From the NCBI GenBank assembly GCA_023475345.1, contig JAMCWD010000004.1, positions 1-64,000 on the forward strand: a DNA stretch of 64,000 nt, in the 5' to 3' direction. This stretch comes from Chloroflexota bacterium. GTDB taxonomy: Bacteria; Vulcanimicrobiota; JAMCWD01. Below, piece by piece: positions 3,271-10,859 of the stretch. The position numbers and the translations under genes were made by a program. Within the stretch, counting starts at the first letter, position 1; each line of letters starts with the position of its first letter. The notes under the pieces are model-generated. The model worked only from the letters and a program-made list of their open reading frames with translations, was not told where the DNA came from and searched no databases.

Positions 3271-3745
3271 CCTCTTCGAACTTTAGCCGCGAAGAACCGA
3301 AATATCGCAACAAAGTCCCTCTTTGCTATTAGTCCCCGAAGGGGGCCAGGGGGTTGGGGGATGTTGAGTTTCCGCTTGTTCCGTTATTTATTTAACCGCA
3401 GAGGCCGCAGAGTTTTACGCAGAGCACGCAGAGGGTTAACGCAGGGATTTACAGGGTTCTTGTTTCAAGCCCCCTGGTAGGGGCGGGGTTTCCCCGCCCG
3501 CCAATTTTCTAGTTTCTAGTCCACCCACCTCGGCCTTTCGACTGCGCTCAAGGCCATCTCTCCGGCGGAGGGGAATTCAGTTGTGCAGGAATGTCAACTT
3601 CAGCCTTAAACCTGCATGATACCGAAACGAAGTCCCCCTTTGAAGGGGGATGTCGCTTCACCGCTTTGCTTCGTATAACAGCCGTAACGGGGGGATGTCG
3701 AGCAGGCACAAATTTCCGCAATAAATCACACAGATCCGGCAGAGA
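3271..3745. repeat. Gap filled with degenerate interspersed repeats
   Basis: No gene is supported between 3239 and 3759. The stretch holds a copy of the GAACTTTAGCCG family (3277 on), a copy of the AACCGCAGAG family (3391-3460), and a composite ending in the hairpin-forming AAGTCCCCCTTTGAAGGGGG and GGGATGTCG (about 3632-3706). The same modules recur near 16.3, 16.55, 19.9 and 36.8 kb. Short open frames here are translations of repeat sequence. Confidence 0.7.
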
Positions 3746-4170: not shown

Positions 4171-5709
4171 TTATAGATCGGCGCCTGTTGTAGGCGTTTG
4201 TTCCAATTTCTTTTTCATTATTTCCGCGATTTCTTCGATATTTAGTTCTCGAAGATCCAGATATGCAATATCTTTGTTTAGACCTACAATATGAACATCA
4301 TCAACAATCACAGGGAGTAGATATTCAGATGTTCTCTTATTCTGGGCTTCTTTGCCAATTTCGAATTCAAAGGCAGGCCAGTCTTTTTCTGGATAATCCT
4401 CAGATAAAAAGATAACCATAAATTGAGCTTCATTGGCATAAATATTAGCAAGATACTCTCTTAGATTTTTCCCCCATAAAGTTTCTTGTTCATCAAAATC
4501 ATAGAATACACTATAATTGCTTTCTTCCAAAATATCCTTAAATCTTTCAGCAATTTCTCTTATCTTTCCTGAGAAAGAAACTGCTACATCATAAGAATAT
4601 TGTGAACTACGAAGGCGAATATTTCTTTTGATTTCGTCCCAATTTACAAGCGATAAGAAAAGCTTAAAAGATGGATCTTCAATTGAAATTGTTCTTGAAA
4701 CAGGCTCGCAATAAAGGGCATCGGACAATCCACGATCTTCAATAACAGATTGCAAATATTTTAAACAATTATAGAATGAAGTGTTTTTCTTGCTCCTTTC
4801 CTTAGGATCACTAACTGAACGAACAATCGATTCTTGTAATTCCTCATAAGAAATTTCGCTCTTTTGAAGCCTCCCAATAGTTCTAATAATATCAAAATAG
4901 GTGTTATGAACAGATCGGGCGTTTTGCTTGCCTTTTGCTAAGCCTATAACTTTATTTTGATATTTACCTTTATAACTTCGAATTACAGCGTCTTTAATAT
5001 CTTCCATGGTGCATTCAATGATTTGACTTTCCTCTAAAGTATTTTCGATGTTATTTCTTATACATGCGATCCTGCAAATAGCTTGTATGGCAGATGGAAT
5101 ACCCTGTGAAGCTTCAATAAAATCTTCTTTAGTATTTTCAGAAAATTGAAAGTTTAGAGCTTCTTCCCCTAAACTGATAATTATCCTAACGAAATTGTCG
5201 TCTTGGATTTTCATTTCATACAAATCATTTCTTATACCTAATTCTTGATCAAGATCAAGTAAAGGTCGAGTAGTTGAAGCTATACCAATAAGAAATAGAC
5301 GAATACCTTTTTCGTGCCAAAGCTTCATTTTATATCCAATTTGAGTTCTAACATCAGAATTTAAATGGTGAAAGTCGTCTATTATTAAGATACCACTTGC
5401 CTGAAGCCAATCGCATATAACTTCATCGCGTGTTTGGCCCCAAAAAATTTTTGCAAATAAATTTTGCAGTGTTTTTTCCTCAGAGTATTCTCTTCCAGAA
5501 ATCCAATGATAATTCCCGCTATGCAATCCTGCTTTTTCTAAGGTTTTCCTGGCAAGAGTAGTTTTTCCAGAACCTGAAGGGCCACTTAATGTTATATGCT
5601 TACCCTTAGTTTTAAGTGACCCAAGCAAGTCTGTAAATTCTTTCGGTTCTACGAATGTTACCGTGGGGATATAAGCCTCATTGAATACATCGTCAAGCTT
5701 GTAATTCAT
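4171..5709 (-). CDS. AAA/STAND-type ATPase with C-terminal TIR domain (candidate anti-phage protein)
   Basis: This 512-residue protein starts with an ATPase module: Walker A GPSGSGKTT (43-51) and Walker B LIIDDFHHL (108-116), of the kind seen in TniB/ORC/STAND ATPases. A middle of about 170 residues may sense or oligomerise. The C terminus from residue 373 (YDVAVSFSG) is a TIR domain with W444 and E448 in the W-x3-E arrangement; that Glu is the likely NADase residue. Bacterial TIR domains commonly deplete NAD+ or make signals upon infection, so abortive defence is the likely role. The gene is much richer in A+T than its surroundings (18 of 60 G/C in 4441-4500; 35 of 60 in 7141-7200), which suggests horizontal transfer. 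GGAGG precedes the ATG. No other defence gene is adjacent. Confidence 0.85.
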   Translation of the reverse strand: MNYKLDDVFNEAYIPTVTFVEPKEFTDLLGSLKTKGKHITLSGPSGSGKTTLARKTLEKAGLHSGNYHWISGREYSEEKTLQNLFAKIFWGQTRDEVICDWLQASGILIIDDFHHLNSDVRTQIGYKMKLWHEKGIRLFLIGIASTTRPLLDLDQELGIRNDLYEMKIQDDNFVRIIISLGEEALNFQFSENTKEDFIEASQGIPSAIQAICRIACIRNNIENTLEESQIIECTMEDIKDAVIRSYKGKYQNKVIGLAKGKQNARSVHNTYFDIIRTIGRLQKSEISYEELQESIVRSVSDPKERSKKNTSFYNCLKYLQSVIEDRGLSDALYCEPVSRTISIEDPSFKLFLSLVNWDEIKRNIRLRSSQYSYDVAVSFSGKIREIAERFKDILEESNYSVFYDFDEQETLWGKNLREYLANIYANEAQFMVIFLSEDYPEKDWPAFEFEIGKEAQNKRTSEYLLPVIVDDVHIVGLNKDIAYLDLRELNIEEIAEIMKKKLEQTPTTGADL

Positions 5710-5765
5710 AATGATTCCTCCGGTGTTTTAATAAATTTCTCACCAAATTTTTTCTCTTAACAAGC

Positions 5766-6123: not shown

Positions 6124-6202
6124 GAACCCCTCACAGGAGGGGAAGTATTCTGCGGCGCTTCTCCCAGGGGAATTGGTTTCGGTTCCGCAGAGGTTTGAGG
6201 CT

Positions 6203-6314
6203 GAAGCTCACGTCCCTGCACTGGATCCCCGCCTTCGCGGGGATGACGAGACTGGAGACTAAACCTGAAGCTCGCATTATTGCACTGGATACCTGCCTTC
6301 GCAGGTATGACAAG
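6203..6314 (+). repeat. Two adjacent copies of a GCACTGGAT inverted-repeat element
   Basis: Two units share CTGAAGCTC, TGCACTGGAT and an inverted repeat: CCCCGCCTTCGCGGGG in the first, ACCTGCCTTCGCAGGT in the second, each followed by ATGAC. In the second the stem bases have changed on both sides, so pairing is kept. A third copy lies at 19807-19856. The translated peptide HWIPAFAGMT is an artefact of this repeat. Nothing else is seen in 6018-6368. Confidence 0.75.
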
Positions 6315-6368
6315 GTTGGAAGATGGGCGGGCGGGGAAATCCTGCCCCAACAACTGGAGGAGTCGAAT

Positions 6369-6773
6369 ATGAACGGTAAAAGAATTTTAATGGCCAAGCT
6401 GGGCCTTGACGGGCACGACCGCGGCGTAAAAGTTGTAGCACGCGCCCTCCGGGACGCCGGATTCGAAGTCATATACACCGGGCTGAGACATTCCCCGGAG
6501 CAGGTTGCCGAATCGGCGCTCCAGGAAGATCCCGCTTTAATCGGGGTGAGCATTTTATCGGGAGCGCACATGGCGCTCATACCCCGCCTCATGGAAGAGA
6601 TGAAAAAGAGAAATATCTCCGGCATCCCGGTTTTCCTGGGCGGGATAATCCCCGATGACGACCGGGAAGATCTTATTAAAATGGGGGTCAGTCATATATA
6701 CGGCCCTGGAAGCACTACGAAAGAAATAATCTCAGGGGTAACGGAGCTTTCCGCCGGGAGAACCCCTGCATGA
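6369..6773 (+). CDS. Methylmalonyl-CoA mutase-type B12-binding subunit (stand-alone C-terminal domain)
   Basis: This 134-residue protein is the complete cobalamin-binding domain of an acyl-CoA mutase: GLDGHDRG holds D14-x-H16-x2-G19, with H16 the lower cobalt ligand, followed by GVSILSG and FLGGIIP, which line the nucleotide tail. In many bacteria and archaea this domain is a separate small subunit. The ATG at 6369 follows GGAGGAG. An upstream in-frame extension would only translate the repeat and is rejected. Its stop overlaps the start of meaB (ATGA), so the two are translationally coupled. The large catalytic subunit is not in this window. Confidence 0.88.
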   Translation: MNGKRILMAKLGLDGHDRGVKVVARALRDAGFEVIYTGLRHSPEQVAESALQEDPALIGVSILSGAHMALIPRLMEEMKKRNISGIPVFLGGIIPDDDREDLIKMGVSHIYGPGSTTKEIISGVTELSAGRTPA

Positions 6774-8261: not shown

Positions 8262-9470
8262 GTGCCGGATATAATAAAGCTTTCTCTTATTTTCGTCGTC
8301 GTAATTTTTCTCCTGTACAGGAAATGGAACCTGGGGGTCGTCCTCCTGCTTGCGTCCGCGGCCCTGGGGCTGATTTATTTTATCCCGCCCGTGAAGGCGG
8401 GCCTCATCATAATAAAAGCCAGCATCATGCCGGAAACCCTGGGCCTGGTGTTCCTCCTGATTCTTATAGCGATCATGGAATACCTGATGAAGGCGGGGCA
8501 GGGAGTCCGGCGCATAATCGAATCTCTCCGGCGGCTGGTCCCCAGCAGGCGCCTGCTTTTCATCATAATGCCCGCATTCTGGGGGATGCTGCCTTCGCCG
8601 GGCGGAGCGCTTTTTTCCGCGCCGTATTTAGTCGAGCTTGACCCTGACAACATAGTAAGTCCAGGGAGGAAATGTTTCCTGAATTACTGGTTCCGCCACA
8701 TCTGGGAATATATCTTTCCGATCTATCCCGCGGTTATTCTCTCCGCGGCTATTCTCCATATCCCGTACAGGAGCATATTCCTGACGTTTTTCCCGCTCAC
8801 GCTTGCGGCCATAGCAGGCGGCCTCCTGTTCGGCTTCCTGGGGATGAAGCTGCCGGAGAAGATAAAGCCCGAAGGGCTGAGCAAAAGATCCGCCGCATTC
8901 ATCCTGCTCAGGGAAATCGCCCCGATCCTGATTCTTCTGATCCTTGTGCTGGCGGCAAAAATACAACTGCTGCCTGCCCTGGGGATAGTCGTCGCCGGAC
9001 TTTTCATAATCATAAGGCCGGATCTCAAAAAATGGCCTACCATCCTGAAGCATTCCATAACGCTGAATACCACAGTCCTTATATTCGGCACGATTTCGTT
9101 CCAGGAAATGCTGAAGTCAACCGGGTGCCTGGGATCTGTCTCCGCGTTCCTTTCCGCGCAGGGCATGCCGGAAAGCATGATATTCATAATCCTCCCGATG
9201 ATTATAGGCATCCTGACCGGCTCATCGCCTGCAATGGTGGCTATTTCGTTCCCCATCCTTCTGAGCCTCCGGCCCGAAGCAGCCCCCGGCATGTTCGCAA
9301 TGGCGTTCGGGGCTGGTTTTTCCGGCGTCATGCTCTCGCCTCTCCACCTGTGTCTTGCGCTCACGCTGGATTATTTCAAAACGACACTCGGCGCCGTTTA
9401 CCGGATTATATGGGCGCCCGTACTGGTAGTTATACTTACAGGCATAGCGTTGTGGCTGACAGGCAAATAG
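8262..9470 (+). CDS. DUF401 family integral membrane protein (first of a tandem pair)
   Basis: The 402-residue, strongly hydrophobic protein has about ten membrane segments. The segments near GMLPSPGGALFSAPYL and GSSPAMVAISFP are typical of DUF401, a family I recall as belonging to the ion-transporter group of permeases; no substrate has been established. It begins at a GTG six bases after cobO and is therefore in the B12 operon. A paralogue follows. The neighbourhood suggests transport of an organic acid linked to methylmalonyl/propionyl metabolism, but that is inference from position only. Confidence 0.75.
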   Translation: MPDIIKLSLIFVVVIFLLYRKWNLGVVLLLASAALGLIYFIPPVKAGLIIIKASIMPETLGLVFLLILIAIMEYLMKAGQGVRRIIESLRRLVPSRRLLFIIMPAFWGMLPSPGGALFSAPYLVELDPDNIVSPGRKCFLNYWFRHIWEYIFPIYPAVILSAAILHIPYRSIFLTFFPLTLAAIAGGLLFGFLGMKLPEKIKPEGLSKRSAAFILLREIAPILILLILVLAAKIQLLPALGIVVAGLFIIIRPDLKKWPTILKHSITLNTTVLIFGTISFQEMLKSTGCLGSVSAFLSAQGMPESMIFIILPMIIGILTGSSPAMVAISFPILLSLRPEAAPGMFAMAFGAGFSGVMLSPLHLCLALTLDYFKTTLGAVYRIIWAPVLVVILTGIALWLTGK

Positions 9471-9566: not shown

Positions 9567-10859
9567 ATGCAGACTATCGTAAGGATCATAATGGTTTTCA
9601 TCCTGATATTGATCCCACTTTTCCTTTACCGCAGGAAGAGATGGGACATGGGAATCATGATGTTCATTGCGGCGGCGGCCGTGGGATTCATATATTTTTA
9701 TTCGCCGCTCAAAGTCTCTCAAATCATATTCGGCGCCTGCATAATGCCCGAAGTTCTTTATGCCGTGCTTTCCCTGATCCTGATAACCCTCCTGGGATTG
9801 CTTATGAATGTCAAAGAACAGGGTAAAAAAATAATCGATGCCGTTTACACCGTTGTGCCCGATAAAAGGATCTTATATATGGCCGCGCCCTTTATATCGG
9901 GCCTTGTGCCTTCGTCCGCAGAGATCGAAGGCGGCGAAGAACATATAAAAGAAACCGATCCTTCGAATTCCGTAACGCCGGAGCATAAAGCGTTTTTCGA
10001 TTACTGGTACAGGAACGTATGGATCTTTATCATCCCTTTATTCCCGGCTTTTATCCTCCTGCTCACGGTTCTTAAAATCACGTACCGGGATCTCTTCCTG
10101 ACAATGTTCCCGCTTTCGATAATTGCGTTTTTATGCGGGCTTCTGGGATTCATAAAAATGAAAAAGCCCTCCGGCGGGGTTTCACCGGGCATGACCAAAA
10201 AAGAGGCGGCGCTGTTTTTGCTGAAAGAAACCGCCCCGCTATTGCTCGTCCTTTTATGCATCGTTGCTTTTAATCTCAATGTAGCGGCAGGCCTTGGAAT
10301 AGCGGCGGCCGCGGTATTCATATCAACGCGCCCGTCTTTTAAAAACCTGTTCCCGATGATCAAAAAATCGATCACGTTGAACAATACGATGCTTGTTTTC
10401 GGCATGGCGGCGCTGCTTGGAATGTTAGACGCCACCGAAAGCCTGAAGCCGGTTTCCGTCTTTCTTTCATCGCGCGGCCTGCCCGATTCCGGCCTGATGT
10501 TTTTCATCCCGTTCGCCGCGGGATACCTCATGGGGTCAATCCCCGTATCGACTGCTTTCATATTCCCGGTAATTATGGGGATGTATCCTATGGGAGTTCC
10601 GGGACGGTACGTCATTATAAACAGGCTCTCCGATTACTTCCCCTGGATCCTCAACCTCAGCCCCCAGACAGGCCTGGGGATCTTCGCGCTGGCATTTGTG
10701 GGGATAATATCCGGGGCCATGTTTTCTCCTCAAAACAAATCCTTAAAGAGGGTGCTTGATAAATACGGTTGTACCTTTGAAAATTTCCAGAAAATATTGT
10801 GGATACCCGTATTGATCCTGATACTTGCCGCCGTATTTTTTGCCATGGCGGGAAACTGA
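9567..10859 (+). CDS. DUF401 family integral membrane protein (second of a tandem pair)
   Basis: This 430-residue paralogue of the preceding gene shares the N-terminal LYRRKRWDMGIMMFIAAAAV pattern, the SGLVPSSAE loop and the YWYRNVWIFIIPLFPA helix. In the loop equivalent to PSPGGALFSAP the sequence is SSAEIEGGEEHI, with more acidic residues, hinting at a different substrate. A cytoplasmic-type segment, ANRLSDYFPWILN-like, is inserted before the last helices. The 96-base gap from the first copy contains no obvious terminator. Tandem duplication followed by divergence is the simplest origin. Confidence 0.72.
   Translation: MQTIVRIIMVFILILIPLFLYRRKRWDMGIMMFIAAAAVGFIYFYSPLKVSQIIFGACIMPEVLYAVLSLILITLLGLLMNVKEQGKKIIDAVYTVVPDKRILYMAAPFISGLVPSSAEIEGGEEHIKETDPSNSVTPEHKAFFDYWYRNVWIFIIPLFPAFILLLTVLKITYRDLFLTMFPLSIIAFLCGLLGFIKMKKPSGGVSPGMTKKEAALFLLKETAPLLLVLLCIVAFNLNVAAGLGIAAAAVFISTRPSFKNLFPMIKKSITLNNTMLVFGMAALLGMLDATESLKPVSVFLSSRGLPDSGLMFFIPFAAGYLMGSIPVSTAFIFPVIMGMYPMGVPGRYVIINRLSDYFPWILNLSPQTGLGIFALAFVGIISGAMFSPQNKSLKRVLDKYGCTFENFQKILWIPVLILILAAVFFAMAGN

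Follow-up and report, generated by a model that had tools for sequence, protein, structure and literature searches.

A mobile protein that joins an ORC/Cdc6-like AAA+ ATPase to a C-terminal TIR domain, with a predicted role in antiphage defense

Background

Near the beginning of the window, by which we mean the whole 64,000-nucleotide stretch of DNA analyzed here (contig JAMCWD010000004.1), an AT-rich gene encoding both an ATPase and a TIR domain lies among ordinary metabolic genes. This locus raises two questions: what kind of ATPase has been joined to the TIR domain, and what might the combined protein do? The original prediction, made from the DNA sequence, was that a STAND ATPase senses infection and triggers NAD+ loss or signaling. 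In this report, we describe the predicted structure of the protein, its relatives and their genomic surroundings. We conclude that it is probably a functional defense gene, a prediction made from association, and that its ATPase is of a different kind than first proposed.

Results and discussion

An AT-rich gene between metabolic genes

The gene is an intact open reading frame (ORF) of 512 amino acids, from ATG to stop, that occupies exactly positions 4171-5709 on the minus strand and is present in one copy in the host genome. It is not a chance ORF, because near full-length relatives exist at 44-57% identity. Its GC content is 0.342, compared with 0.500 +/- 0.025 for the 34 other window ORFs of at least 200 amino acids (z = -6.4), and its GC3 in the same comparison is 0.253 versus 0.588 (z = -7.4), which bears out the earlier observation that its composition is sharply unlike that of its neighbors.

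The AT-rich stretch sets in at about position 5765, just upstream of the gene, and runs to the gene's 3' end; the dip in GC reaches slightly beyond it. This stretch and the gene are of about equal length, so the locus looks like the insertion of one gene among ordinary metabolic genes: 2-hydroxyglutaryl-CoA dehydratase lies on one side, and on the other side are a B12-binding protein, MeaB and CobO. The idea that the gene was gained by horizontal transfer is supported by base composition, by its patchy relatives and by the mobile copies described later. A search for a promoter of the gene gave no signal above that of shuffled sequences. Features of the gene and its product are listed in Table 1.

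Two pairs of inverted repeats surround the gene region (3583-3637 with 6167-6221, 55 nt at 76%; and 3477-3509 with 6319-6351, 33 nt at 85%), and both resemble dispersed intergenic repeats more than transposon ends. Downstream of MeaB and CobO are tandem DUF401-like membrane proteins (window positions 8262-9470 and 9567-10859), the first assigned by Pfam and the second from its similar length and sequence.

Table 1. Positions of the gene, its ribosome-binding signal and the domains and motifs of its product
Feature	Residues	Window coordinates	Strand	Basis
AAA+-winged helix-TIR protein, 512 aa (whole gene)		4171..5709	-	ORF reading, Pfam
Shine-Dalgarno GGAGG (plus-strand CCTCC), 7 nt before ATG		5717..5721	-	read from sequence
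AAA+ ATPase domain	20-165	5215..5652	-	Pfam AAA_22/AAA; AlphaFold2 model; best Foldseek match archaeal Cdc6
Walker A, GPSGSGKTT	43-51	5557..5583	-	alignment
Walker B, ILIIDD	107-112	5374..5391	-	alignment
Arginine-finger position, at end of helix before strand 5	R160	5230..5232	-	alignment; position from model
Helical lid, with GIPS (203-206)	171-218	5056..5199	-	model; alignment
Winged-helix domain	270-343	4681..4902	-	helix-strand-helix-helix-strand-strand in model; fold matches
EDP motif, closes winged helix	344-346	4672..4680	-	alignment
TIR domain	372-503	4201..4596	-	Pfam TIR_2; profile matches to BtTIR, AbTIR
Phe of SFxG	F379	4573..4575	-	invariant; candidate residue facing catalytic Glu
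Catalytic TIR motif, W-P-A-F-E	W444-E448	4366..4380	-	conservation; aligned with AbTIR WTNYE

Predicted domain anatomy

Pfam models AAA_22 (residues 36-143, E = 3.1e-7) and AAA (E = 2.7e-5) both match above their cut-offs. In an alignment of 12 sequences, G43, S45, G46, G48 and K49 of Walker A are invariant, as are D111, D112, F113 and H114 in the Walker B region, and these residues mark a predicted working ATPase. The ATPase motifs and R160 are invariant in both branches of the family, D345 and P346 are invariant in our alignments, and a basic loop, KGKQxAR (residues 259-265), is conserved.

An AlphaFold2 model built from twelve sequences (pLDDT 84) resolves the AAA+ domain, lid, winged helix and TIR domain, the last spanning residues 373-503 in the model. 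The top Foldseek match is archaeal Cdc6 (1fnn, E = 4.2e-10), followed by Orc and RFC subunits and RuvB, and 1fnn also ranked first with an earlier model built from seven sequences. Identity to Cdc6 over the fold match is about 17%. When the core was used in a sequence-only search of the PDB, only P-loop-level and weak RuvB matches were found; matches to repeated RecA domains in that search were rejected as artefacts of multi-domain scoring. In fold, the modeled ATPase core is ORC/Cdc6-like, consisting of AAA+ domain, lid and winged helix. The order ATPase, middle region, TIR had been correctly anticipated and is supported by Pfam and by the model; the identity of the middle region as a winged helix had been missed. 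We do not file the protein as a member of the Orc1/Cdc6 group, because a sensor-2 arginine is not evident: judged by eye, the position holds Ser or His within GIPS or GSFH.

The TIR domain is recognized by Pfam TIR_2 (PF13676) at residues 375-489 (E = 2.8e-14, above cut-off). Its profile also matches the NADases BtTIR (7.9e-12) and AbTIR (1e-10) across the catalytic motif, with W444 and E448 in register with the AbTIR motif. Residues S378, F379, W444 and E448 are invariant in 17 of 17 family members, and G381, R384 and V401-D404 are also kept; the intact W-x3-E motif, with its glutamate at position 448, was thus read correctly from the start. In ThsB proteins, a Phe faces the catalytic Glu to form an F/E pair (PMC12578639), and F379 might play the same part here. 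The model is weakest in the TIR domain, where pLDDT is about 52 around residues 441-460, E448 included. TIR NADases and TIR cyclases are indistinguishable from sequence in this case.

Other TIR genes were seen in the host genome (G000). One (contig C64, L050:436-2640, minus strand) encodes 734 amino acids in which a TIR domain is combined with a restriction-endonuclease-like N-terminus and a secretin-like or pilus-like C-terminal part, an odd set of domains. Another (C41, L053 near 1474-2518) is a TIR ORF of 106 amino acids whose TIR match contains one TGA; a coiled-coil ORF comes next, and the short TIR ORF is probably a broken gene. On contig C45 (L051:1492-3357), a protein with an N-terminal TIR domain, an apparent NB-ARC-type ATPase and TPR repeats is more classically TIR-NLR-like.

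A rare, patchy and mobile family

A scan of GTDB genomes found seven essentially full-length relatives at the level of identity given previously, in Pseudomonadota, Bacillota, Bacteroidota and the archaeon Methanoperedens. A second, more distant branch is carried by five plasmids (about 25-30% identity) and five viral contigs (21-30% identity). The order AAA+, winged helix, TIR is retained in all 17 of 17, and no partner gene is common to them all. Among the 149 genomes searched in the host phylum, none of the 148 others carries the gene, and around the Sphaerotilus and Peptococcaceae relatives, samples of 369 and 399 genomes contained no full-length match other than the known relative. Given a single carrier in the phylum and few matches in these samples, we therefore consider the family rare and patchy. 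In a phylogenetic tree, the Methanoperedens copy is sister to a Bacteroidales copy with support of 99/100, a pairing that fits transfer between domains of life.

The Contendobacter copy is an integron cassette, accompanied by an integron integrase (7.2e-139). The cassette has its left boundary, GTTAGCT, at position 5067 and an attC site running from AGCTAAC at 6627 to GTTATGC at 6678; the core sites match and the attC stem has a predicted energy of -16.3 kcal/mol. Two of the viral contigs share a baseplate-wedge gene (phrog_43) with our gene immediately upstream of it; the preceding gene is a tail-completion gene in one contig and a baseplate spike or assembly gene in the other. The remaining viral copies adjoin a terminase, a tail gene or an integrase. 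A search of IMG/VR with a profile of the core yielded twelve matches, of which seven were dropped as clamp loaders or other AAA proteins; an IMG/VR search by close patterns yielded nothing.

In the Marinobacter relative (L008:5992-7514), frame changes split the winged helix from the TIR domain, as a result of either gene decay or sequencing error.

The core also occurs without a TIR domain

The PADLOC search that the original prediction had suggested gave a match confined to the core, to a candidate system, PDC-S59, that the prediction had missed (residues 97-328 versus profile positions 143-378 of 428, 1.8e-21). A Niallia plasmid protein of 417 amino acids matches PDC-S59 almost end to end (residues 3-415 versus 5-403, 1.4e-31) and stops shortly past a VDP motif, with no TIR domain, and a second TIR-less PDC-S59-like protein occurs in another locus, L049. 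PDC-S59 thus shares the AAA+ and winged-helix core, but these standalone members finish at or soon after the DP motif, whereas the window protein continues into a TIR domain. The window protein can therefore be described as a PDC-S59-like core with a fused TIR domain. In the open-access literature, we found no paper describing this AAA+-TIR fusion, or naming or testing PDC-S59.

In L049:5518-8917, the TIR-less ATPase is followed by an 89-amino-acid ORF and then by what appears by eye to be a PIN-type nuclease-like gene, whose product might act in trans as a PDC-S59 effector.

Association with defense genes and a proposed mechanism

As a raw count, five relatives adjoin known defense genes. The neighbor is DRT4 in Aquabacterium, QatA with a QueC-like gene (Qat) in Peptococcaceae, and ThsA of Thoeris I (E = 2.4e-197) in Marinobacter. 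The Pantoea relative adjoins ThcA and ThcB4 (Thoeris III) as well as ThsB genes, and an EACC1-type caspase and a ThsB-like TIR gene are near the Curtobacterium relative. With an integron cassette, viral contigs and defense-gene neighbors, the relatives are typical defense cargo, and this association argues strongly for the predicted defense role of the window gene.

The Pantoea plasmid island (L047:653-8570) packs several TIR systems densely: the AAA-TIR gene, two ThsB-like genes, a CBASS-type phospholipase, ThcB4, ThcA and a macro-domain fragment.

Building on the domain anatomy, the invariance of the ATPase and TIR catalytic residues, the mobility of the gene and the company it keeps, we propose that the protein is a single-gene, mobile antiphage sensor and effector in which assembly of the AAA+ domains clusters the TIR domains into an active NADase, and we regard this reading as reasonably likely. 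In the resting state, the ATPase with its winged helix would hold the C-terminal TIR domain inactive. On infection, the ATPase-winged-helix part would recognize a cue, and assembly that depends on nucleotide and is mediated by the conserved arginine finger would gather several TIR domains. Clustering is expected to turn on NAD+ cleavage, because TIR active sites form between neighboring subunits; in SpbK, SARM1 and AbTIR, the TIR domains assemble into two strands and the active sites are composite (PMC12847820). The clustered domains would then cleave NAD+, with E448 as the catalytic residue, and the resulting depletion would halt or kill the cell and so end the infection. Assembly as the trigger, an NADase outcome and phage as the cue are steps that we infer, and the nature of the cue is a guess, because the protein has no recognizable sensor domain.

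Alternative explanations

The main rival is Thoeris-type signaling, in which the ATPase senses infection and the TIR domain makes cyclic ADP-ribose or a related messenger; this would activate a distinct effector, either in cis or in trans. This explanation draws on the Marinobacter, Pantoea and Curtobacterium neighborhoods, and on the profile searches, in which the nearest solved TIR relatives are BtTIR and AbTIR. Both of these proteins make 2'cADPR-type products. One ThsA can, moreover, be fed by two TIR proteins (PMC12578639). However, in Marinobacter and Pantoea, the Thoeris systems appear to have ThsB or ThcB genes of their own, and of the 15 relatives whose flanks could be read, 12 had no recognized Thoeris gene in the DNA examined. 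ThsB and ThcB models do not match the window protein, and one relative matches them weakly (6.9e-4). As had been predicted, the window gene stands alone, and neither a Thoeris nor a CBASS partner adjoins it; the statement that it is not part of Thoeris holds for this copy but overlooked the Thoeris systems beside its relatives. Membership of the window copy in Thoeris was rejected, because no effector was found, either close by or elsewhere in the assembled genome. A search of the host genome (86% complete), in which Marinobacter served as the positive control for ThsA, found no full-length ThsA or ThcA, only a match to a SIR2 part, and for this reason we consider messenger production unlikely for the window copy. 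The host genome has a caspase-like gene on another contig, and no TIR gene was found in the stretch read around it.

A more doubtful alternative retains the original assignment: that the protein is a true STAND or NLR-like receptor, of the Avs or TIR-NLR kind, that has lost its repeat sensor. STAND ATPases have an Arg after strand 4 (an hhhTTR-type sensor 1), a GxP motif at the lid and C-terminal superstructure-forming repeats. The lid motif is GIPS, GMPS or GVPS in the close branch, which recalls GxP, but it is of the GSFH type in the distant branch. At the sensor-1 position, TTR, SSK, SNK, TTK and AGN occur across the two branches, such that the STAND-type Arg is not conserved. Pfam STAND models give weak matches that fall below their cut-offs (nSTAND3, 22.7 bits versus 27.2; NB-ARC, 20.8 versus 23.5; NACHT, 15.2 versus 26.7). 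Neither Pfam nor the model reveals C-terminal repeats, and the TIR domain directly follows the winged helix. The plant NLR Sr35 does appear in the fold search, at rank 36, but every fold ranked above it is Cdc6/ORC, RFC or RuvB. Because the sensor-1 Arg is variable, repeats are absent and the arginine finger R160 is invariant, we do not retain the STAND label, and we regard a degenerate receptor of this type as improbable.

It is least probable of all that the gene is not antiviral and maintains or protects mobile elements, for example, by excluding competing plasmids or as an addiction module: it is frequent on plasmids and prophages and occurs in an integron, but it has no conserved antitoxin-like partner, several copies, including that in the window, lie on chromosomes where no mobile element was seen around them, and its neighbors are antiphage systems.

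Implications and comparison with known systems

If the proposed sensor-effector is active, bacterial TIR NADases would be coupled to an ORC/Cdc6-like ATPase and not just to NLR-type STAND switches, and the trigger would be contained within 370 residues that include no repeat sensor. It would be a small, testable, single-gene system kept in bacteria and one archaeon, and PDC-S59 could plausibly be understood as an interchangeable core for sensing. We also put forward, tentatively and with much less confidence than the proposal of clustering itself, a broader reading: a third TIR immune-receptor architecture, apart from NLR/STAND and ThsB, in which an ORC/Cdc6-type AAA+ switch might use its winged helix and the KGKQxAR loop to read an invader's nucleic-acid or replication signal, and toggle the C-terminal TIR domain, the same core also existing in TIR-less form as PDC-S59.

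Archaeal Cdc6/Orc1 is the best solved fold and has the same AAA+ domain plus winged helix and an Arg at the finger position. The window protein differs in its added TIR domain, in that a sensor-2 Arg is not seen, and in being encoded by a mobile rather than a core gene. Thoeris ThsB and ThcB proteins share a TIR domain with an F/E catalytic pair, putative in the window protein, and Thoeris genes adjoin some relatives of the window gene; unlike them, the window protein has its own ATPase, and ThsA or ThcA is not nearby. The TIR-NLR of P4-like satellites is also a single gene on mobile elements that combines a TIR domain with a P-loop NTPase, and consists of an N-terminal TIR domain, a STAND NTPase and C-terminal TPR repeats, the supposed sensor (PMC9122126); the window protein has its TIR domain at the C-terminus and lacks repeats. 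SpbK, likewise a single-gene TIR protein of a mobile element, triggers abortive infection (PMC12847820). Where SpbK has a small N-terminal sensing domain, the window protein has an AAA+ ATPase.
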